Shown in pieces: positions 1 to 60,280 of a DNA stretch of 64,000 nucleotides. The stretch comes from Psococerastis gibbosa. Its lineage: Eukaryota > Arthropoda > Insecta > Psocodea > Psocidae. The position numbers were made by a program, and so were the translations under genes. The stretch lies in NCBI GenBank assembly GCA_963971405.1, contig OZ020490.1, positions 22,903,464-22,967,463 of the forward strand, written 5' to 3'. Below the pieces are notes generated by a model. It was not told the origin of the DNA and searched no databases. It saw nothing but the letters and a program-made list of their open reading frames with translations. Position 1 is the stretch's first letter. Each line of letters starts with the position of its first letter.

Positions 1-2015
1 GGGATTCTGTCATATGCCTTCTCTAGATCAATGAAAACAAAGTGGATTGGACTCAGTCTTTCACGACGCTTTTCTTGGAGTTTTCTAGCGATGTATATCC
101 CGTCAGTTGTACCTCTTCCAGGCATAAAGCCAAGCTGGTTTTCGGATATAGTGTCGTTTGCCAGGGCACGTATTCTCTTCTCCACCACTCTTTCGAGCCA
201 TTTCATTGCGTGGCACAGGAGCTTAATAGGTCGGTAATTTTCACAGCTCTGGACATCTCCCTTCCGCTTGTAAATTGGCACCACCACACTTTCTCTCCAT
301 CGCTTGGGCATCGGTCCGCCGCTCACTATCAAGTTGAAAAGATGGGCTATGAGGGCCAAAGTATCTTCGCTCAAACTTTTGAAAGCTTCGATCGGGATCC
401 CATCGGGGCCCGCTGCTTTCCCGCGTTGAAACGCATTCATAGCATCAGTTAACTCTGCCATTGTTATAGGTGGGATTTCCGCCTCATTTGCTCTGGCTTC
501 GGGTAGCGGATTTCTTGGGTAGCCCTCGTTCATCACACCTTGAAAATACTCGGTCCATCTCGCTTTGATCTCGCTTTTGTCTGTAAGAACCCGTCCATCT
601 GCACTTTTGACACACACAACTGCTTCCAGATCTTGCGTTTCTTTCTGGCGACACTTTGCGATTTTAAAAATTGCTTGCTCGCCCTCTTTAGTGCCTAGAT
701 TTCGATACCAATCGTCAGTTGCTCTCCCTCTTGCCAGCACTATCTCTTACCTTGCAGCCTTCTTAGCTCTTTTATAACTTTCTTTGGCTGTAGCCATTTT
801 ATTTGCTTGCCAGACCCTGTAGGCTTCCTTTTTTACTTTCAGCGCACTCTGCACCTCCTCACACCACCACCACGTATCCCGCTCCATCGCCTTTCCACCC
901 TTTGTCTTCCCGAGCACTTCTTCCCCCGCTATTAGGATTCCAGACTCCAAGCTGTTCCAGATTTCCTCGATATTTTGCGGGTCAATATCCTCTACAAGTT
1001 GCCTCACTCGGATGGCGAACGCTGCTCTCTCTTCCACTCTTTTCAGCTTATGCCATTTCATCTTGGGCTCAACGTGCCTCTTTGTCTTTTTTCTTCCCAT
1101 TAGGACCATATCGCAGACCAATAGACGATGCTGGTCAAAAACACAAATGCCTGGTATTACTTTGCAATCCTCGATGGTTTTCTTGTGTTTTTGCCTAACT
1201 AACACATAATCAATCTGTGACTGGTATGGGCCACTTTTGTACGTCACTAGGTATTCCTCCTTCTTCATAAATTGCGTGTTCGCAATCCACAACTGATGCG
1301 CAACCGCCCATTGTAGTATTCTTTCTCCACTTGCATTTTTAGACCCATAGCCATGCCCTCCATGCACTTCTTCATAGTTGGTTCGATCACATCCCACATG
1401 GCCATTCAAATCGGCACCAATAATTACATGTTCTTCGTTTGGTATACTAAGCATCATCTGGTCCAAGTCTTCATAAAACGTGTCCTTATCTTCATCACTG
1501 CTTCCCACCTGGGGTGCATAACCACAAATAACATTTAACACAACTTTGTCCGTCATAAAAATCTTACATAACATAAGCCGGTCACTCTTCCTCACTACGT
1601 CCACGACTGCATCTTTCATCTTCGGTTCGACAACAATGCCCACGCCATTTTTGTTATTACACGTGCCGTAGTAGATTAGCTTGTAGCCGTCCCCGATGTT
1701 TCTACTTCGGTCGCCTTTCCATTTGGTCTCTTGCACACAGAGCACACTGATTCCTCTTGTTTTCATCATTTGCGCGATTTCCATGCCTTAACCCCTCATT
1801 GTGCCAACGTTTATCGTAGCAAGGCGTACCTTTGTTGTCGTCCTACCTCTATTTTCTGTTTGCTTTCTTCCTCTTCTTTTCCGATGTCTTCTTCGTTCAC
1901 CGCTGTCTACGATGGTCAATTGCCCTCGGGTTCTTGTCACAGCAGCCGGGCTGTGCTGCGGTGCGTCGCTTAAGGGGGACGCCCTAACCGTATACTCGCT
2001 TCTGTTTCGATCCAT
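1..2015 (-). pseudogene. RTE-like non-LTR retrotransposon pol (endonuclease + start of RT), truncated by window edge
   Basis: Read on the minus strand from about 2015 down to 1, one frame encodes a basic leader, an apurinic/apyrimidinic-type endonuclease and the first half of a reverse transcriptase. Endonuclease signatures seen are VQETKW near 1735, VIIGADLNGHVG near 1410 and the 3' block QSQIDYVLVR near 1210. The RT half shows AAGPDGIP near 405, NYRPIKLL near 230 and FIDLEKAYDR at the window edge. In these elements the endonuclease nicks target DNA and the RT copies element RNA at the nick. The frame is broken by two in-frame TAA codons, at about 1785-1787 (just before the endonuclease core) and at 747-749 (between endonuclease and RT). 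Each looks like a single substitution, and the frame is otherwise open. The RT active-site YxDD region lies outside the window. Host-annotated relatives are often named craniofacial development protein 2-like, which is a misnomer. Confidence 0.9.
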
Positions 2016-16310: not shown

Positions 16311-16471
16311 CTGAATATGACTGCATATTCTGCATAAAAAATTTGCAGCGCCAAGTGCATGTTTTCGTATTGGTTAGCACATTAGCCGCAAGGGTCGCGG
16401 TATCAGGTCAATACCAATTTTAGGTATGCTACAAAATTTTCCTCTAAAACTACTCTTCTTTTCCTTTTCAG

Positions 16472-16736
16472 GTATGGTTTAAAAATAGACGTGCGAAATG
16501 GCGGAAAAGAGAACGAAATGCAATGAATGCGGCGGCTGCCGAGTTCAAAAATGGCTTCGGTTCTCAATTCAACGGTCTTATGCAACCATTCACGGATGCG
16601 GACGCACTATATTCTAGTTACTCGAGTTACAATAACTGGGCGACCAAAGTTCCGAGTCCTTTAGGCGCCAAAAGCTTCCCTTGGTCCGTTAACCCACTGA
16701 CCAGCGTTGTTCCTCCAAATCACCAGACCGGCGTAG
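16472..16736 (+). CDS. Pitx: Pitx (pituitary homeobox / Ptx1), internal exon: homeodomain C-terminus and linker
   Basis: The exon opens after a pyrimidine-rich acceptor (TTCCTTTTCAG) with codons for [15 protein letters not shown]. This is the recognition helix of a K50 paired-like homeodomain followed by the basic extension characteristic of Pitx. The preceding homeodomain residues must lie on an upstream exon, and a split at this point of the third helix is common in paired-class genes. The linker continues [20 protein letters not shown], then a Tyr/Ser-rich stretch and a [10 protein letters not shown] block. I place the donor at GTATGT (16737), leaving phase 1, which fits the GA that opens the next exon at 17882. 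Pitx proteins are nuclear transcription factors binding bicoid-type TAATCC sites. Upstream coding exons were not identified in this window. Confidence 0.93.
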
Positions 16737-18192
<1,456 letters not shown>

Positions 18193-44967: not shown

Positions 44968-46672
44968 GCAGAAGCTTATTCAATTTACCTTCAAAAGTAG
45001 CCAAACTATTGTACACTTGCTTACAAACTTAAAGTTTCTGTTGGTAGCCTTCAAGTCCCAAGGGCTATGCGAGTCAGCAATCTCCATGGCAACTGTTGAA
45101 AGGGCTAACCCATCGTTAGTACAGCTGAGGAAAGTGGAATACGAAGCTCATTCAGTTTATCTTCTACCCTATCTATTACGCACTTGCTTATTACAAACTT
45201 TAAGTTTCTGTTGGTAGCCTTCAAGTCCCAAGGGCTATGCGAGTGAGCAATCTCCCATGCAACTGCGCTGAGAGGGCCCCACCATCGTTGGTACACCTGA
45301 GGAAAGTGGAATACGAAGCTCATTCAGTTTATCTTCTACCCTATCTATTACGCACTTGCTTATTACAAACTTAAAGTTTCTGTTGGTAGCCTTCAAGTCC
45401 CAAGGGCTATGCGAGTGAGCAATCCCCCATGCAACTGCTGAGAGGGCCACACCATCGTTGGTACACCTGAGGAAAGTGGAATACGAAGCTCATTCAGTTT
45501 ATCTTCAACCCTATCTATTACGCACTTGCTTATTACAAACTTAAAGTTTCTGTTGGTAGCCTTCAAGTCCCAAGGGCTATGCGAGTGAGCAATCTCCCAT
45601 GCAACTGCTGAGAGGGCCCCACCATCGTTGGTACACCCGAGGAAAGTGGAATACGAAGCTCATTCAGTTTATCTTCTGCCCTATCTATTACGCACTTGCT
45701 TATTACAAACTTAAAGTTTCTGTTGGTAGCCTTCAAGTCCCAAGGGCTATGCGAGTGAGCAATCTCCCATGCAACTGCGCTGAGAGGGCCCCACCATCGT
45801 TGGTACACCTGAGGAAAGTGGAATACGAAGCTCATTCAGTTTATCTTCAACCCTATCTATTACGCACTTGCTTATTGCAAACTTAAAGTTTCTGTTGGTA
45901 GCCTTCAAGTCCCAAGGGCAATGGGAGTGAGCAATCTCCCATGCAACTGCTGAGAGGGCCACACCATCGTTGGTACACCTGAGGAAAGTGGAATACGAAG
46001 CTCATTCAGTTTATCTTCAACCCTATCTATTACGCACTTGCTTATTACAAACTTAAAGTTTCTGTTGGTAGCCTTCAAGTCCCAAGGGCTATGCGAGTGA
46101 GCAATCTCCCATGCAACTGCTGAGAGGGCCCCACCATCGTTGGTACACCCGAGGAAAGTGGAATACGAAGCTCATTCAGTTTATCTTCTACCCTATCTAT
46201 TACGCACTTGCTTATTACAAACTTAAAGTTTCTGTTGGTAGCCTTCAAGTCCCAAGGGCAATGGGAGTGAGCAATCTCCCATGCAACTGCTGAGAGGGCC
46301 ACACCATCGTTGGTACACCTGAGGAAAGTGGAATACGAAGCTCATTCAGTTTATCTTCAACCCTATCTATTACGCACTTGCTTATTACAAACTTAAAGTT
46401 TCTGTTGGTAGCCTTCAAGTCCCAAGGGCTATGCGAGTGAGCAATCTCCCATGCAACTGCTGAGAGGGCCCCACCATCGTTGGTACACCTGAGGAAAGTG
46501 GAATACGAAGCTCATTCAGTTTATCTTCTACCCTATCTATTACGCACTTGCTTATTACAAACTTAAAGTTTCTGTTGGTAGCCTTCAAGTCCCAAGGGCA
46601 ATGAGAGTGAGGAATCTCCCTTTCAACTGAGAGGACCCTAGCCATCATTGGTAAAGGTGAAGAAAGTGGAAT
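44968..46672. repeat. ~170-bp satellite array, about ten units
   Basis: Ten copies of a 168-173-bp unit, anchored on CTTCAAGTCCCAAGGGC at about 45050, 45220, 45390, 45560, 45730, 45905, 46075, 46245, 46412 and 46582. The terminal units (first and last) are the most diverged and the inner ones nearly identical, as expected from unequal exchange. Variants alternate (GGGCAATGGG with CCACACCATC and CTTCAACCC, versus GGGCTATGCG with CCCCACCATC and CTTCTACCC) in units 6-9, suggesting an emerging ~340-bp dimer. Overlapping ORFs on both strands are by-products of repetition, since the unit length is not a multiple of three. Confidence 0.9.
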
Positions 46673-46879
46673 CCGAAGGAATACGCGTAGTCATCAATGG
46701 CCATTAGGACCGGTATTTACGGACAACTCGAACGCCGGTAAAATGGAGGAAATGGGTAGGTGCGAAACCCCAGAGTCTACATCAGCAGCTTTCTGCAGCA
46801 GGCTTGTCGCAGGTGCACGCGGTTTCCCCCACCTAGAAAGTATCTAAAGTGCGTTCAGAAATAAACTGTTTCACCAACC

Positions 46880-49379: not shown

Positions 49380-51638
49380 ATGGTAAGTAAAATATTCAAA
49401 CACTTATTGGTTTTATTAAGCGTTCGGTTGTTTTGCCTCTGATCTGCATCTGCATCGTTAGAGTCTGGAGTTGTATAAGTATCATCTTAGGTCCGGACTC
49501 CGGAACGACACCTACCACTTAGCCCCTAACCTATTATCTATAATTATTGTCTTTTATAAGATTTAAAAAGTTTCTTTCGGAGCTACTGGAGAACTGAGTA
49601 AGTAGTATGTTTAACAATCATGTAAGGTGGATGTTGCATTGTTGCATTAATTAATTTTTTTTTTTAGAGTCAACCCAATCCTTCGTTTATTAAACACAAG
49701 AGAGATGCGGATCCATTGTCTCCATGGAGTCATTTCTTGATAGCTGCAGACGGCAAAAGTGCCCAGTGCAAAACTTGTAAGAGTATTCTCAAGACTCTTG
49801 GAGGATCTACGAAAGGCCTCCATGTACACTTAGAGGCAAAACATAAATTAAATCTAAAAAAACAAGACGGCGGCTCGGCCGCACCAGCAACAGCTTCCCC
49901 TTCTACATCAAGCAAGCGTCAAAAAATCAGCGATTACATGTTGCCAGCACTAGACGATGGAAGTATAGAAGCTGTTTTAGCTAGAATGACAGCGCTTGAC
50001 GGTATGCCCTTCAGGATTTTCGTTACATCTAAGGACTTGCGCAATTTGTTCCTGGCAAAGGGCTTTTCAAACTTGCCTAAATCTGAACCTACTATTAGAA
50101 GCAAAGTAATGAGCTACAGTTTGGTTGTGCGATCCAAAATAAAAGCCGAGCTGACACACCATAAGGCAATGGGACAACGCTTCAGTTTAACATTCGACGA
50201 GTGGACCTCTTCTGGAAACAAACGATTTATGAATGTCAACATTCATACTGGAGAGAAATCGTGGAGTTTGGGTTTAGTTAGGATTAAAGTTTCCCTAACT
50301 GCTGAAAACTGTCTGATACTTTTAGAAAGTCGCTTAGACTTATTTGGAATCTCTCTTAAGAAAGACGTGGTGGCCATCGTGACCGACGGTCCAAATGTTA
50401 TGCTGAAGGTCGGGAGGTTGGTTGAAGCTGAGCATCAAGTTTGTTTTGCTCATGGTGTTCATTTAGCAGTTTTAGATGTTTTATACGGAAGGAAGTCGAC
50501 AGAAACGACGCCACCTGCGTTGGCCGATTCGAATGAAAGTAGTGAGGACGAAGACGATGGTGATGGTACGGACGGGCAATTTATTATTGACGATACGGTG
50601 CAAGAACCTTCGATGACTAAATTGACAACTTTTCGGAACATTAAAGAAGTAATTTGTAAGGTCAGGAAAGTTGTGAAATATTTTAAAAAATCGCCTTTAA
50701 AGGTAGACACAATATTGGAAGCGTATGTGATTGCAGAACACGGAGCCCCCCTGAGTTTACTGCTGGACTGTAAAACAAGATGGAACAGCCTTTTTACAAT
50801 GCTTGAACGATTCATCAAACTGAAGTCTAGCATCCAAAAGGCCTTAATCGACTTAAAACATCCATTTAAATTGGAGGAATCTGATTTTGATGTAATTGCA
50901 GAGGTGGTAGAGGTCCTGTTGCCCGTGAAGTTGACAGTTGAAGCTTTCTGTCGTTCGGACGCAAATTTATTCACCGCAGATGTGGCTCTTATTTTTCTGT
51001 TCAAAAAGTTAAGGAAATTAAACACGGCCTTTGCAACTGCAATGACTGAATCCTTAGTGGAACGGGTTACAGAACGGCGGCGAAACGATCTATCTGGAGT
51101 GCTGGCATACTTACAAAACCCAGCAGCAAATGAACCTGAGGCTGATGAAGTGGGCCAAAAAGTAGTTGCCCTTTTTGCTCAACCAACAAAAGCCACCATC
51201 AGAAAAGTAATAATGTCTCTCGTGAAAAGAGTTGGTCTTTCAAACACAGAAGACGATCCGGTACCTCATATGGTTGGTAAGGATCCCCAAGCCATACCCA
51301 AACCCAACCCTGTTCCGGTTTCAAATAAGGTAACCATGAAAAATGAGCTGGAGGAGGCAATCAAACAGAGCCTCCTTCCCATGAAGGAAGATTACTCATG
51401 CGACCTCTTAAAAACTATAAAAAAAGAAATGAACATATATGATGGCGGGCAACAACCCCGAGGAACAAATTTACAGAAAGCGTTTATTTGGCTGAAGACC
51501 ATCCCTCCAACATCAATCGAGCCCGAGAGGGCTTTCTCGGCGGCGGCATACATAGGCACAAAAATAAGGAGCCGTTTAAATGATGAAACACTAGACGTTC
51601 TATTATTTTTAAGAATCAACTTGCGGCAAAACGTGTAG
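49380..51638 (+). CDS. hAT-family transposase, BED zinc finger type, two exons
   Basis: The coding sequence appears to start ATG at 49380-49382, immediately followed by a consensus donor GTAAGT. A 285-bp intron (49383-49667) ends in a T-rich tract and AG, and exon 2 opens AGTCAACCC in frame, giving about 657 residues. The first in-frame ATG within exon 2 is not near the front, which supports the spliced start. The BED finger has Cys35, Cys38, His55 and His60. The RNase H-like catalytic core has LTFDEWTS (Asp178), AIVTDGPNVM (Asp241), CFAHGVH (Cys260/His263) and a conserved LLLDCKTRWNS Trp. It finishes with the hAT dimerisation region IEPERAFSAAAY (catalytic Glu621), RSRLNDETLD and LLFLRIN. 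An acidic, low-complexity insert (SSEDEDDGDG) lies mid-protein. No frameshift or stop is present. It cuts and pastes the enclosing element. A ZBED-like domesticated host gene is unlikely, because the TIRs and duplication are intact. Confidence 0.95.
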
Positions 51639-53105: not shown

Positions 53106-54020
53106 CAGGTCTGCAGGGTCTGTCCGGAAAGTAATGTCAGTGAATTTTTTTACGGAGACTATGTGCGCGCAAGCGCGTGCTTTACTCGCTCAGATTTTGG
53201 TGGGGGGGGGGGATCTGGCAACAAGTTCCCACAAGTGCCAGCTGGCTGGTCGCATCAATTGTTCCATGTGAGTCGGTACAGTAACCCGGTGCAAGACGAA
53301 AAAAAGCGTTCGCTTGAGCAACGGATATGGCGATTAAGTTTTGTGTAAAACTGGAGAAGAGTGCTGCGGAAACCATTATATAATGTTGAAGAAGGCTTTC
53401 GACGACGATTACCTTTCGGGAAAATTGTCCGGAGGCACAAGGCTTTCGCAGAAGGTCGGGAATACGCCAACGACGAGCCCCGCGCTGGACGGCCATCAAC
53501 CTCCACTGCTGTTGTCTTGAAGGTTTTAGTAATGTTTAATTTATCGGAAATCAAATGGACACTTACATGTCGGTCAGTGTTCAACAAGTCACGCACATGT
53601 TGCGCATTGTCGTTGGTAGTGGAGTTTGATGGGCGTCCAGCGTGGCGCTCGTCGTTGGCGTCTTCCCGACCTTCTGTGAAGGCCTTGTCCCACCGGAAAA
53701 TTTGCCTACACAAAAGGCAATCGTCGTCGAAAGCCTTATTCATAACATTTTAATGGTTTCCGCAGCACTCCTCTCCAGTTTTACACCAAACTTGATCGCC
53801 ATCCGTTGCTCAAGCGAACGCTTTTTTCATCTTGCACCGGGTTACTGTACCGACTCACATCGAACAACTGATGTGACCAGTACAACGATCGGTAGCCAGC
53901 TGACGCTTGTTGGAACATGTTGCCTGATCCCTCCATCAAAATCTCAGCCAGTAAAGCGAGCGCTTTTGTCTATAGTCTCCGTAAAAAAATTCACTGACAT
54001 TACTTTCCGGACAGACCCTG
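53106..54020. mobile_element. Foldback mariner: two inverted copies of a mariner 5' end
   Basis: The left end (CAGGTCTG then CAGGGTCTGTCCGG) and the right end (CCGGACAGACCCTG) are followed by TA target dinucleotides. AAAGTAATGTCAGTGAATTT continues both arms. Each arm encodes the N-terminal DNA-binding part of a mariner transposase facing outward-in. The minus strand (53743-53530) reads RQIFRWDKAFTEGRED, AGRPSNSTTNDNAQHVRDLL and HVSVHLISDKLNI. The plus strand (53390-53505) reads RRHKAFAEGREYANDEPRAG and RPSTST. The arms meet near 53525. The catalytic DDD domain is absent, so it cannot mobilise itself. The left terminus also carries a tandem near-copy of its first 8-9 bp. Confidence 0.82.
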
Positions 54021-55252
54021 TATGTTAGGCGTGTATTCCACTGGTTAAAGTTTCCGTCATTTGTGATTAAAAAAAAATTGAGATTGTTGTTTCAAAGAGA
54101 CTATTATGTAGATACTTAACTTATCTCCTATTATAAATTGAGTTATAATATGGTAGCAGACATAATTAATAAGTCTCTACCATATTATAACTTAATTTAT
54201 ATTTAAGTGGCAGCCCGAAATTTAATACTTTTTATTTTTTAATTAATTAACTAAGCATGTTATTATTATTCTCCAGTTTTACACCAAACTTGATCGCCAT
54301 CCGTTGCTCAAGCGAACGCTTTTTTCTTCTTGCACCGGGTTACTGTACCGACTCACATCGAACAACTGATGTGACCAGTACAACGATCGGTAGCCAGCTG
54401 ACGCTTGTTGGAACTTGTTGCCTGATCCCTTCACCATAATCTGAGCCAGTAAAGCGAGCGCTTTTGTCTCCGTAAAAAAAATTCACTGACATTACTTTCC
54501 GGACAGACCCTGTATGTTAGGCGTGTATTCCACTGGTTAAAGTTTCCGTCATTTGTGATTAAAAAAAAATTGAGATTGTTGTTTCAAAGAGACTATTATG
54601 TAGATACTTAACTTATCTCCTATTATAAATTGAGTTATAATATGGTAGCAGACATAATTAATAAGTCTCTACCATATTATAACTTAATTTATATTTAAGT
54701 GGCAGCCCGAAATTTAATACTTTTTATTTTTTAATTAATTAACTAAGCATGTTATTATTATTCTCCAGTTTTACACCAAACTTGATCGCCATCCGTTGCT
54801 CAAGCGAACGCTTTTTTCTTCTTGCACCGGGTTACTGTACCGACTCACATCGAACAACTGATGTGACCAGTACAACGATCGGTAGCCAGCTGACGCTTGT
54901 TGGAACTTGTTGCCTGATCCCTTCACCATAATCTGAGCCAGTAAAGCGAGCGCTTTTGTCTCCGTAAAAAAAATTCACTGACATTACTTTCCGGACAGAC
55001 CCTGTATGTTAGGCGTGTATTCCACTGGTTAAAGTTTCCGCCATTTGTGATTAAAAAAAAATTGAGATTTTTGTTTTAAAGAGACTATTATGTAGATACT
55101 TAACTTATCTCCTATTATAAATTGAGTTATAATATGGTAGCAGACATCATTAATAAGTTTCTACCTTATTATAACTTAATTTATATTTAAGTGGCAGCCC
55201 GAAATTTAATACTTTTTTATTTTTTATTTAATTAACTAAGCATGTTATTAAA
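53773..55252. repeat. 492-bp tandem duplication (three copies) spanning mariner arm and MITE
   Basis: CTCCAGTTTTACACCAAACT recurs at 53773, 54271 and 54763. The second and third intervals are 492 bp and the copies are almost identical. Each unit fuses part of the mariner right arm with the left part of the GGCGTG MITE (54028 onward). The duplication therefore arose after both elements were adjacent. Identical 60-codon ORFs at 54257 and 54749 are a by-product. Confidence 0.88.
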
Positions 55253-55708: not shown

Positions 55709-56396
55709 TTACACAAATGCCGTAATTATAATAAAATATCAATAGAGGTTCGGCGAAATTAAATAATTCCCTTTTACACACCCACAAAGATAAGAAACCG
55801 GTTAAATGAAATATTCATATAATAATGTTTACCTACATTATAAGAAAGCTTATATATATACAAGCTTTCTTGAATAACAGATCATTCCCCCCCCCCCACA
55901 ATTTATTACGCCCCGGTTAGGCGTAGATCGTGGGTTCGAATCCCACCAAGTCCAGTTTCTCTATATCCTCTAATTTCGGTTTTAACTAATCAAGCTACAA
56001 CTAATTAAAGCAACTAAAAACTAACTTTACATCATATTTAATATAATTCCAACCATCAAGTACTGAGTTCTTGACGCATTTTAAACGCTACCGGTAATAA
56101 AATAAGTAGTTCAACTGGTGTCACAGCCAAAAATCTATATTACTGATTTTTGAAGAGGACACCACCGAGTTTTATTTTTTAAAGGAAAATGGAAATCCGC
56201 TCTTTTCTTTCAATTGTTACTATCCCCACCACGATTTCACGACAGGCTGAACCACATTGGCCGTTTGACCAAAACCGTTTATTGCAATGGTGTTCGTCAA
56301 GGCAAACTTGAAGTTAGATTGCCTTCACTAAGCCAGCCTTGTAGTCCTGATTACTGTATGGTAGGCCTACCTAAGTTACTGTATGTTCATGAAAGT
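55709..56396. other. No gene recognised
   Basis: AT-rich flank of the BEL element. Contains a C10 run at 55888-55897 and a tRNA-like 3' half (55905-55952). Confidence 0.35.
55905..55952 (+). other. tRNA-like 3' half
   Basis: GATCGTGGGTTCGAATCCCA gives a canonical T-loop with a perfect 5-bp stem (GTGGG/CCCAC), followed by CCAAGTCCA, acceptor-like. No matching 5' acceptor or anticodon arm is visible upstream. It is probably a tRNA fragment or SINE remnant. Confidence 0.35.
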
Positions 56397-56505
56397 TGTC
56401 GAATGTTATTGTGTATGCTTTGTTTATCATAGTTTGTTGTTGTTTTTGAGTTGTGAGAAAAATACAAATGAAATATTACAATTTTTAAAACCAAATTATT
56501 TCACA
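56397..56505 (+). repeat. 5' LTR of the BEL/Pao element
   Basis: TGTCGAATGTTATTGTGTAT to TTATTTCACA. It ends at the A of the gag ATG, so the gag start overlaps the LTR/PBS junction. Differs from the 3' LTR at four positions. Confidence 0.88.
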
Positions 56506-57236
56506 TGGCGACCGTGACAGATGTATCTGAGACCGAAGAGACCGGTTACTCAAAATCCGAGATAATTTTGAAACATCTCCGAGCTCAGCGTCGGGTGATG
56601 AGAGGTTTGTTGACAAAAGCTTGCAAAGTCAAGCCAGTTTCAAAGGCAACAGTTGCTAAAGCGAAAAATAAGGCCGATCGTTTATTAGAACTGGAGAAGA
56701 CGCTGCAAGATGTAATTCTTGAAATGAATGATTTTGAATTGCTTGAGGAAGAAATGGAGAGAGCTGAAGAATATCTAGACCTATATACCGAGTATGCTAA
56801 TTCATTGGGATCTGAGGAAGATTACGAGTCCGTAGCTGGGAGTGCCATTGCTAGTGGAAGTCGACAAAAGATAAGTGTTAAATTACCACAATTAAATTTG
56901 GCTGAGTTTGATGGCAATCCTAAAAATTGGATTAATTTTTGGTCATTATTTGAAATAATTGATTCAGACGAGAACTTGAGTGACGGCCAAAAGCTTCAAT
57001 ATTTGAGACAAAGTGTGACGGATGTGGCTAAGACAGTTGTTTATTCTTTTCCACCGTCACCTGCTAATTATCGTAAAGTTATTGAGCATTTAAAGCAGAG
57101 GTTTGGTAGGAAAACACTTCTTGTTAATATTTACGTGCGTGAGCTAATGCACATAACCTTAACAAAAAACAGTCGAGATTTGGCTAATTTGTATGACAAT
57201 ATTGAGGCAAGACTATACGAGCCCTTGAAACACTAG
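56505..57236 (+). pseudogene. BEL/Pao gag, N-terminal frame
   Basis: A 243-codon frame from ATG 56505 to a TAG at 57234-57236. It has a coiled N-terminal half (ELEKTLQDVILEMNDF, EEEMERAEEYL) and a DUF1759-like core with LPQLNLAEFDGNPKNWINFW, SDGQKLQYLRQSV and VIEHLKQRFGR. Gag packages the element RNA into particles. A frame change near 57215 cuts the protein short, and its remaining domains continue in other frames up to about 57560. Recorded as a broken gene; the intact form is not reconstructed. Confidence 0.88.
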
Positions 57237-58177
57237 GACTAAAGAGTGATGAGTTCGCGGCCATAATGTGCCCGTTAGTAGAGTCCGCATTGCCAAACGA
57301 GATTTTAAGATCGTTTGAAAGAAAACGGTACTTGGTTACTAGAGACGGAGCTGAAGAGGATGATTGCACGTACGAGGAGCACAAGATCTCTTACGTTTTG
57401 TTCGGGGAGAAGTAGAATCAGAACAAAGAGTCTTGATTGCCGCTAAGGGAGTAAAGGAACATGGGAGCATTGCAGCAGACAGTGTTTGGCTCTACTACAG
57501 ACCAAGTCAGTTCAAAATTGTGTTTTCTGCCACAAACAACACCCAAGTAAAGATTGTTACAAGGCTAAGAAGAGCATGAATTATGAGGAGAAAATCAAAG
57601 CTCTACAAGACGGTGAGTGTTGCTTTCGTTGTTTAATACCGAGGCATCGAGTACAAAACTGTTCTCGTACTGATATTGTGTGCAAGATTTGTAACAAGAG
57701 GCATTACGAAGTCTTATGTAATAGAGAACCCAAGAATTATATATGCCTACTAAGGAGAAGAAGGCGAGCAGTTACTGCAGAGTCACACCAAGTTTAATGT
57801 TACTACAGACAGTCAAAGTGAGAATCGGAAAGCGAGTCTTGTTATCCGTGGAGTTTTGGATACTGGATCTGACAGATCGTACATCAGCAAAGAGATTGCT
57901 AAGAAAATACACGCCAATACCTGTGGCAAGGAAAAGATAACCCATGGTGTGTTCGGTGGGAAAGAAACCAAAGCTACTGATCACGCCAAATTTTTGGTCG
58001 AAATTTCGAGTGTTGACCATAAATACAAAAATTCATTTTGTTTATTGGACCAGGAGAAGATTTGCTGTTCCATTCCTAAACTGACTAATCTGGAGCTACA
58101 GAAAACTTTGGGTGCCAAAGGAATCAAGCTGAGTGATGCATTACCAGGTTCTGACGAGATTCACATTTTATTTGGAA
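57237..58177 (+). pseudogene. BEL/Pao gag C-terminus, zinc knuckles and protease region, frameshifted
   Basis: Successive frames show a gag continuation, zinc-knuckle motifs (CVFCHKQHPSKDC, CFRCLIPRHRVQNC, CKICNKRHYEVLC at 57510-57720) and an aspartic-protease block with LDTGSDRSYIS (57850-57890) followed by DUF1758-like sequence to 58175. At least four frame changes separate these pieces (around 57215, 57370, 57500-57800 and 58177). The protease would process the polyprotein but cannot be made intact from this copy. Confidence 0.85.
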
Positions 58178-59597
58178 TGACCACATACCTAAGATTACGA
58201 CATGCGAGAAAGTAAAAATTAACAACGACTTAGTTGCTGAACTTATGTGTTTTGGTTGGACGTTAATGGGAGTGGTTGAGCAAAATAAGAGTGCAACAAA
58301 CATTGCGTCTACATTGTTAAATACTACTTGGAGCAATGAGACGCCGAAGGCGTTGGCTGATTTATGGACACTTGACACACTAGGCACCAAAGAATCTATC
58401 GATCAACCTGTAGCCCTAAATCCCAATGAACGTGTAGAAAAGTTCTTTAAAGACACAATCCGCATCAATGAAGAAGGGAGGTACGAAGTACGGCTACCTT
58501 TCAAAGAGGGCTGTCCACCATTAGAGCAAGACGTAAACATTATGAGCCAACATCTAAAGCAAGTCACACAGACGTTGACAAAGAAGAAAGTACGAGAGCA
58601 GTATGATACAGTAAAGGGACTGGAGCCAGAGCTGTCGCGAATGGCGGCACGACAGCAACAAGAGCTAACTGAAGTGCGGGCGCTGCACAGGGCAGAGCTG
58701 GAGGCTGTGGAACTCCGGGTCACCAGACGTAATACTGAGCTTATGGTCCAGTTAAGGGTGGAGATGACCAAGGACAAGGAAGAAGCTCTGCAGCGGGAAG
58801 CCGCACTACTCAGGACCAGATGGGAGAAACAGCTGGAGGAGGAGCAGAGAAGAAGTGAAGAACAAGTTCGCAAGCTGAAAGATGAGAACAGGAGAGATAG
58901 AGATAGACTGGCTATGGTGGAAGTGCAGTTCCAGGAGACTTTGGCCGAAGCTAGAAGATCTATGGACAGGGAAAAAGAGAGGGAGAAGGCTGCTGTTGCT
59001 CGGGAGTTGGAGGGGAAGCTAGAAGATGCGCACAGACAACATCAGGTGGAGTTGAAGGACCTCAAGGTGAGTATGGTACTCGAAAAAGAGATGTGGATGA
59101 ATATTTACAAAAGAATACAAGCTAATAAGTTCCTGGAGAGAGAGGCTGAGCTTCATTATCAATATAAGGAGAGAGACAGAGATCTTGAGCTCGCGATAGA
59201 CCGGCTCGAGACCGAAGGCCACAAGGCCAAATTAGAATTGCAAGAAGCTGCTGAAAATCGACTGAAGAGGCTGCGAGAAAAACTGGAGGGAGAGTTGAAA
59301 GATGCGGAAACGGAAGTGACATCATTGAAAGCTAAATTATCTGATAGTAAACTGCTGTTGGTGGCCAAAGAGGAGTTTGAGGACAGGGTTGCCGATTTGG
59401 AGACTCAGCTGAGACATAACAAGATTGAGTTGGCGCTGCTAAAGAAATTATGTGAGGAAATGTCAGCAGAAAGGGTTGAGCTGCGGAAGGTGGTAGCTGC
59501 TGAATTGGAAGCAGAACTGTCATCAGCGGCTGAGACCGTGGAAGTAGTGCGCCAAGAGATGGCAACGCTGAAGGCCAACCACGTTGTGCAACTTTAA
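58178..59597 (+). CDS. Chimeric ORF: BEL/Pao pre-RT pol segment fused in frame to the CEP131 C-terminal third
   Basis: An uninterrupted frame of about 470 codons; its first ATG is at 58245, giving 450 residues. The first ~143 codons are BEL/Pao pol upstream of RT: MCFGWTLMGVVEQ, DLWTLDTLGTKE, EEGRYEVRLPFKEGCPPL. Near 58605-58612 the sequence changes to CEP131 (AZI1; Drosophila dilatory): TVKGLEPELSRMAARQQQEL, RALHRAELEAVE, ERDRDLELAIDRLE, ENRLKRLREKLEGELKDAE, FEDRVADLETQLRHNKIELA. These align nearly gap-free with the human protein as I remember it (VRGLEPEIQKLIARH, KGRDKEIELVIHRLE, ESRIKRLRDKYEAELSELE). CEP131 is a coiled-coil centriolar-satellite and basal-body protein needed for cilia. No introns interrupt the ~1.1-kb segment, so it came through RNA. 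The CEP131 part ends at an in-frame TAA (59595-59597), although homologous codons continue to TAG at 59706-59708. The fusion protein, if made, would be almost wholly coiled coil. Confidence 0.88.
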
Positions 59598-59708
59598 CGA
59601 CGGGACGAAGCTGTGCGAGCCGCCAAAAAGGAGGCTGAGAAAGACCTGCTGGATTTTGGCAACAGAGTTCGACTTCGAATAAAGAAGAAGAGCCAACAAC
59701 AACCATAG
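59598..59708 (+). pseudogene. CEP131 C-terminal remnant beyond the premature stop
   Basis: Directly after the TAA the same frame reads RRDEAVRAAKKEAEKDLLDF and NRVRLRIKKKSQQQP before TAG. The first part corresponds to the ARKEEAVSSLRTQHE region near the human C-terminus. The captured segment therefore appears to include the native end of CEP131, with one nonsense change in this copy. Confidence 0.75.
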
Positions 59709-59759
59709 AGGAGGCCGGAAGCCTCATTAACTCACCTCCTGGCGTTTGGAGGTCGGGAG
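59709..59759 (+). other. BEL/Pao 3' internal end and polypurine tract
   Basis: About 50 bp between the CEP131 stop and the 3' LTR, ending GGAGGTCGGGAG, purine-rich and adjacent to the LTR as expected for plus-strand priming. Confidence 0.65.
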
Positions 59760-59868
59760 TGTCGGATGTTATTGTGTATGCTTTGCTTATCATTGTTTGT
59801 TGTTGTTTTTGAGTTGTGAGAAAAATACAAATGAAATATTATAATTTTTAAAACCAAATTATTTCACA
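59760..59868 (+). repeat. 3' LTR of the BEL/Pao element
   Basis: TGTCGGATGTTATTGTGTAT to TTATTTCACA, 109 bp, with four substitutions against the 5' LTR. The element's end is followed by ACAGT. Confidence 0.88.
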
Positions 59869-60280
59869 ACAGTATATACCATCTTAACATAGAGTAATTT
59901 ATATCTTGGATATCGGTTCTGCAAGTAGTAGCTCCCTTCCAGAGATAAATACAGAGTCTAAAGTTGAAAGCTAAAAGGAAACTTACCTCATGTTCAATGA
60001 TGAGCACAATAACATTGTCATATCAGTATTCCAATGGCGACTGGTTTGAAGAGATTTTCATAGTGCGGTACAGAAATTGGATTAAGCAAATTATAATCAT
60101 TGCAAATTTACTACCTAATTTACAATTTACACAGCCTAGTAAGTATAACTACTTCTCAGGGAAAAGTGAAAACTAAAAGCCGTGGGCACTAGTAGATCGA
60201 GGGAGATTCTAGCTAGACGACCGATCACGATTTTTTCCTTGTTTACATTTACTTAAGGCACTGCACTATATATATACCCG
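59869..60280. other. No gene recognised
   Basis: AT-rich sequence; the short ORF at 59964-60176 has no recognisable domain. Confidence 0.3.

Follow-up and report, generated by a model that had tools for sequence, protein, structure and literature searches.

In-frame capture of spliced CEP131 sequence by a BEL-derived LTR element with multiple insertions in Psococerastis gibbosa

Positions 56397 to 59868 of a 64,000-nucleotide stretch of the Psococerastis gibbosa genome (the window; C15:22903464-22967463, contig OZ020490.1, of a 409-Mb assembly in 68 contigs) are confirmed here as a long terminal repeat (LTR) element whose pol frame continues, in frame, into an intronless segment of the host gene CEP131. 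Very probably, an element of the BEL/Pao lineage captured spliced CEP131 mRNA by template switching and gave rise to a non-autonomous hybrid that, moved in trans, reached at least eight insertions. All genome-wide counts of DNA matches reported below are lower bounds. The window copy is laid out as follows.

56392 to 56396, left target-site flank AAAGT; the right flank, ACAGT, lies at 59869-59873, and four of the five bases agree
56397 to 56505, plus strand, 5' LTR of 109 bp, one of a direct repeat pair
56506 to 56520, plus strand, primer binding site TGGCGACCGTGACAG, named by its position directly after the 5' LTR
56505 to 57236, plus strand, gag (DUF1759), the frame broken near its end in the window copy and open in copy L012
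57447 to 57797, plus strand, Cys/His-rich, nucleocapsid-like stretch in a displaced frame, a motif seen by eye with no convincing Pfam match
57754 to 58215, plus strand, aspartyl protease region, a weak match (Asp_protease_2, E 9e-4, under the curated cut-off)
58155 to 58607, plus strand, pol stub upstream of reverse transcriptase (RT), homologous to uncaptured relatives until 58606-58608
58608 to 59674, plus strand, captured segment of spliced CEP131 mRNA, starting 6 nt into exon A and ending 9 nt into exon F
59671 to 59759, plus strand, the element's own 3' tail, common to the uncaptured loci L039, L040 and L044
59748 to 59759, plus strand, purine-rich tract GGAGGTCGGGAG before the 3' LTR, a plus-strand primer by position only
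59760 to 59868, plus strand, 3' LTR, the other member of the repeat pair

The two LTRs start with TGT, finish with ACA and are identical at 105 of 109 positions (four differences). An initial annotation of this DNA, made from its letters alone, had read them as LTRs, and repeats of this kind do bound other copies that are flanked by perfect target duplications. The primer binding site TGGCGACCGTGACAG is identical in two relatives, L058 and L059, and a scan of the window returned zero Rfam or tRNA matches. DUF1759 is carried by the frame 56472-57236 (Pfam, E 5e-18). The tract annotated as polypurine is where it was placed, but it is purine-rich rather than purely purine, and GGAGGTCGGGAG recurs in the same or nearly the same form in other copies. 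An open frame of 480 aa (58155-59597) extends from pol into a CEP131-like coiled coil, as first proposed, without a stop at the passage from one to the other. A PDB search gave no match. Gag and protease are disrupted by frame changes in this copy, and its CEP131 part has one in-frame stop, near 59595, that is private to it; the window copy therefore does not encode the whole chimera.

The identification of the captured segment is supported by protein similarity and by the host gene itself. Residues 154-480 of the 480-aa frame were scored against 7998 candidate proteins, of which at least two reached E <= 0.001: Exaiptasia CEP131 isoform X2, the better match (E 2.5e-22, 30% identity, 99% of the query covered), and an unnamed relative (E 8.6e-20). 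When the junction was used as a DNA query, a region on C19 aligned from 58608 onward but not before; this region is the multi-exon host CEP131 gene (C19:4684326-4689859), the parental gene that the initial annotation had asked to have located. Its exons compare with the element as follows.

C19:4684326-4684543, exon A, element identity 95.8%
C19:4684855-4685080, exon B, element identity 96.2%
C19:4686444-4686626, exon C, element identity 96.3%
C19:4687820-4688032, exon D, element identity 92.8%
C19:4688562-4688779, exon E, element identity 95.9%
C19:4689727-4689859, exon F, only its first 9 nt in the element

Spliced together, exons A to F form 1191 nt that are open throughout. The introns are of the GT-AG type, with AG preceding each exon and GT following A to E, and exon F terminates in a stop; a further exon with CEP131 similarity lies upstream (C19:4682533-4682757). 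Introns A-B to D-E, each bracketed by long exon matches, are missing from the element, and the absence of intron E-F rests on the 9 nt of exon F. In every copy of the element, introns are absent over whatever CEP131 part that copy retains. The annotated extent of the capture, 58612-59708, was right in being CEP131 but not in its boundaries, which fall at 58608 and 59674; likewise, the segment described as an intronless C-terminal third of the protein is intronless but lacks the last 40 residues of CEP131 and its stop. Within exon D, nine bases are common to the window copy, L013 and L015 and absent from the assembled host gene; either the donor allele differed or the host gene has lost them.

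Both ends of the captured segment lie inside exons. The 5' junction lies 6 nt into exon A, where TATGATACAGTAAAGG in the window corresponds to GAGATGACAGTAAAGG in the gene. The relative L046 (C21), in which a stretch before the corresponding words is missing, carries the homologous words GAACAGTATGATACCGTTACG (REQYDTV) and continues toward RT. The bases AC are shared for certain at this junction, and five of seven bases are shared if the progenitor resembled L046. At the other end, 9 nt inside exon F, similarity of the uncaptured L039, L040 and L044 to the window begins at 59671 or 59672, and GACT (59671-59674) therefore belongs to both exon F and the tail. The 5' junction is readable in six of nine loci and its position is identical in all six, with small later changes nearby in L014, L015 and L016. 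Eight of the nine loci have continuous sequence over the 3' junction: L014 ends before it, and L013 departs from the tail shortly after it. Two simpler descriptions of the limits were considered and rejected, namely a capture that begins at a splice boundary (it begins 6 nt into exon A) and one extending to CEP131's own stop (it ends 9 nt into exon F).

What stood in the place of the captured segment can be read from uncaptured relatives. L011 (C1) matches the window at 92% over 58094-58606 and then enters RVT_1 (E 8e-9), with no match further upstream, and L058 and L059 show 71-75% DNA identity to the window that ends at 58608. RT is found at the homologous place in L011 and L058, after the position of the 5' junction, in agreement with the annotated replacement of RT and integrase. 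Compared with these relatives, the capture replaced RT, RNase H and integrase, and the short words shared at the junctions would be compatible with two template switches, one onto spliced CEP131 mRNA and one back.

We propose that spliced host CEP131 mRNA was packaged together with the RNA of a BEL/Pao-lineage LTR retrotransposon. During minus-strand synthesis, RT would have copied the element's 3' tail, switched to exon F of the CEP131 mRNA, continued on that template as far as exon A and then returned to the element at a point in pol immediately upstream of RT, yielding a product composed of LTR, primer site, gag, protease, pol stub, 1.07 kb of CEP131 in frame, tail and LTR. Uptake of mRNA by an LTR element via template switching at short shared words is described in two reports (PMC8277862, PMC5408686). 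This product would then have integrated; since it has no RT and no integrase, the hybrid would have to be moved in trans, its RT, RNase H and integrase supplied by related BEL elements, and could in this way have amplified to at least eight insertions.

An intronless segment might also arise if a LINE generated a processed CEP131 pseudogene that inserted into an LTR element, or if DNA recombination joined the two, and a LINE endonuclease-like frame does occur elsewhere in the window. However, the 3' junction has no poly(A), the segment substitutes for RT and integrase instead of being added to them, and its limits lie inside exons A and F; we give this origin hardly any weight. A route like that of retroviral oncogenes, in which an element in or near CEP131 produced a read-through transcript that was spliced, with a second switch adding the 3' end, would account for a 5' boundary lying just 6 nt inside exon A. 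Against it, in all six readable copies element sequence stands in place of the first 6 nt of exon A, so that the boundary is not a splice site, and 40 kb around the host CEP131 gene contain no match to any piece of the element except the CEP131 exons, and therefore no trace of an element residing at the donor. This route is highly unlikely.

The captured stretch has been copied and spread, as had been suggested. A search with this stretch and the tail gave at least 20 matches; among the matches listed, ten represent nine element loci, five are exons of the gene and five are tail-only matches at three uncaptured loci. The loci that bear the capture, at least nine, are the window copy, L012 (C13), L013, L015 and L041 (C2), L014 (C1), L016 (C15), and L042 and L043 (C14). 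Because the flanks of L042 and L043 are shared, with 98.6% identity over 5.5 kb, we regard these two as one duplicated insertion and therefore count at least eight insertions. Perfect 5-bp target duplications flank L012 (GCACA), L015 (CCGTC) and L042 (TGCTC, and likewise its duplicate L043); the window copy matches at four of five bases, and L013, L014, L016 and L041 each lack one end. Differences between paired LTRs number 0/108 in L012, 4/109 in the window copy, 6/106 in L015, 3/113 in L042 and 4/113 in L043. The hybrid was mobile, and its several insertions constitute a non-autonomous mobile family. An assembly error, a concern raised at the outset, was rejected: identical junctions recur at other loci on other contigs.

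L042 and L043 (C14:36.45M and 36.42M) are miniature in form: both LTRs are present, and a large part of the interior is deleted, with the start of gag and the end of CEP131 kept; the 5.5-kb segment that holds this form is duplicated about 30 kb apart.

The annotated pol-CEP131 chimera is broken in the window copy but exists as a fused frame elsewhere. L012 has a single 964-aa frame that runs from gag through protease into CEP131 and spans about 220 CEP131 residues; its CEP131 segment has lost a part by deletion, and what lies at the end is out of frame. In L013 there are two frames, one of 285 aa and one of 738 aa; the longer passes through CEP131 to the 3' tail. Frames are broken in the window copy, L014, L015 and L016. 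These reading frames indicate that the hybrid had a fused gag-protease-CEP131 frame, of which copies with long intact stretches persist.

To examine selection on the captured segment, five copies (window, L012, L013, L015 and L016; L014 and L041-L043 were left out) were compared with the host gene over 827 nonsynonymous (N) and 232 synonymous (S) sites. All p-values in these comparisons are rough, as related copies are not independent. Private changes numbered 42 N to 13 S (ratio 0.91, p 0.75), whereas differences common to all copies present numbered 11 N to 14 S (ratio 0.22, p 2e-4), and one further difference, synonymous, was common to some copies. The shared set is constrained, and the host gene's own branch alone could explain this; two distant CEP131 proteins failed to polarize these differences, which are assignable to neither the element branch nor the gene branch. 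Among the five copies, we saw no purifying selection on CEP131 after capture of the kind that domestication would leave, and the ratio of nonsynonymous to synonymous change that the initial annotation had called for gave no sign of selection since that time. For gag-protease, six copies were compared, with seven columns of more than two states set aside. Private changes were 93 N to 40 S (ratio 0.62, binomial p 0.014), the split between two subfamilies 6 N to 2 S, and other patterns 14 to 12; pairwise ratios against L012 ranged from 0.30 to 0.58 in five comparisons.

Could the CEP131 part work for the element, a coiled coil fused to Gag and protease steering particles or proteins to centriolar satellites or the centrosome and so aiding spread? 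The fusion is in frame, L012 and L013 retain their long frames (964 aa, and 738 aa through CEP131 to the tail), and at least nine loci bear the capture versus four with an RT piece at 78% or more. Nevertheless, one join in three should be in frame anyway, the private CEP131 changes are of a neutral kind (ratio 0.91, p 0.75), and L012, the copy with identical LTRs, lacks part of the CEP131 segment. Such a function is unlikely. It would be equally surprising, in our estimation, if a Gag-protease-CEP131 protein carried particles along microtubules to the satellites and a polymerase-less element had thereby outspread its enzyme-bearing siblings, which the RT search represents, among the matches listed, by short pieces and two copies, one of them truncated and the other diverged. 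Nothing in the compared copies seems to favor selection to keep CEP131, and since its private changes look neutral, passenger cargo is the default reading.

Placing the hybrid within a lineage depends on its uncaptured relatives. DUF1759 and DUF5641 are associated with the BEL/Pao lineage, whose target duplications are 5 bp long. L058 has 225-bp LTRs that are 99.6% identical, a 5-bp duplication (GTCCT) and frames of 405 and 1305 aa, in which we found DUF1759, Asp protease, RVT_1 (E 1.7e-5, below the cut-off), the Pao peptidase PF05380 (E 3e-28), Integrase_H2C2 and DUF5641 (E 2e-16); L059 likewise has a perfect 5-bp target duplication. PF05380 and DUF5641 occur in L058 and not in the hybrid itself, which has no RT by which to be placed in the BEL/Pao clade. 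As L058 is related, has the same primer site and carries the Pao retrotransposon peptidase, the hybrid family is assigned to the BEL/Pao lineage; the annotated assignment holds on the strength of RT-bearing relatives, and the hybrid is probably best described as BEL-derived rather than as a full BEL/Pao member. By its primer site and completeness, an L058-like lineage may be the helper.

Searches for closer relatives were made with the LTR plus leader and with RT. The former gave at least 24 matches, which, besides the capture-bearing loci, include L039, L044, L060, L061 and five other places (C1:23.78M, C13:45.21M, C1:21.22M, C19:11.03M and C14:6.55M). L039 is matched by tail and 3' LTR only, and L060 and L061 show nothing beyond LTR and leader in the 3.7 kb that were read. 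L044 (C19:25.54M) is an old uncaptured relative with pieces of LTR, gag and protease, in which the 3' tail is matched three times consecutively. The RT search gave at least 13 matches, those listed being L011, six capture-bearing copies (pre-junction only), C21 at 78%, L047 and L048 at 70% (located inside L058 and L059) and three short pieces. Among the matches listed, an RT piece at 78% or more is present at four loci (L011, C21, C14:6.55M and C19:25.5M), and C14:6.55M has both an LTR match and an RT match. RT-bearing siblings near the hybrid's subfamily seem to be few in this assembly. In a tree of the pol stub, the uncaptured L011 was not placed outside the captured copies with support.

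Several of these observations weigh against capture of spliced CEP131 mRNA followed by movement in trans. The full-length BEL relative for which the initial annotation had proposed a search exists in L058, which is complete-looking, but not with the same LTR: no complete sibling sharing it was found among the LTR loci read, and L011, the nearest RT-bearing sibling, is truncated. Because of this, the helper is inferred from a relative with 71-75% DNA identity and different LTRs. In addition, gag-protease is only weakly constrained (ratio 0.62), the 5' junction has only two certain shared bases, and the true progenitor is not in hand.

The kind of event described here is already known, as the initial annotation had noted in citing Bs1 of maize, which is not a BEL/Pao element. 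Tan et al. reportedly described LTR-mediated retroposition in metazoans in 2016. The hybrid resembles such cases in holding an intronless copy of a multi-exon gene between LTRs, and differs in its BEL/Pao lineage, its fused gag-protease-host frame, its loss of RT and integrase, its insertions (at least eight) and its donor, CEP131. Acutely transforming retroviruses carry gag-onc fusions, in which pol has given way to host coding sequence joined in frame after gag, and they need a helper; the hybrid, in contrast, is an intracellular retrotransposon without an oncogene or an envelope. LTR-mediated retroposition is also cited in PMC8277862, where the CG17604_r family is described as LTR-retrotransposon mediated and amplified further. 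In PMC13317346, Bs1 is discussed with abnormal template switching in plants; like the hybrid, it has pieces of host genes inside the body of an LTR element and a hybrid frame, but it is a plant element with three donor genes. Metazoan BEL/Pao retrotransposons, as portrayed in PMC3118150, share gag, protease and LTRs with the hybrid, whose relatives have the Pao peptidase, and differ in that the hybrid's RT, RNase H and integrase are replaced by host sequence. In the literature on CEP131 and retrotransposons, titles and the beginnings of abstracts mention no such capture, and a limited search on Bel-Pao gene capture, covering parts of the sources, returned no BEL/Pao family with a gag-protease-CEP131 frame.

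As an animal example of how a retroelement converts host mRNA into a mobile, multicopy gene fusion, the hybrid can be read with unusual clarity, in that a single assembly contains the donor gene, the junctions at both ends, relatives that lack the capture and a copy whose LTRs are identical. It shows that a host sequence taken up by an LTR element in an animal can start a lineage that transposes instead of remaining a single retrocopy, and the effect of a captured centriolar-satellite coiled coil on Gag trafficking becomes testable.

Other features of the window lie apart from the element. At 49668-51638 (plus strand), a 656-aa open frame with matches to a BED zinc finger and the hAT dimerization domain represents a long open hAT transposase, and a 346-aa frame at 747-1787 (minus strand) has a LINE-like endonuclease/exonuclease domain. 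The open frame at 16448-16879 (plus strand) has a homeodomain end, a weak Pfam match covering the last 13 positions only, which we take to be Pitx-like. At 45021-46678, a 170-bp unit is repeated in tandem 9.7 times (95% matches), and at 53772-55250 a 492-bp tandem unit is present three times, with inverted arms nearby.

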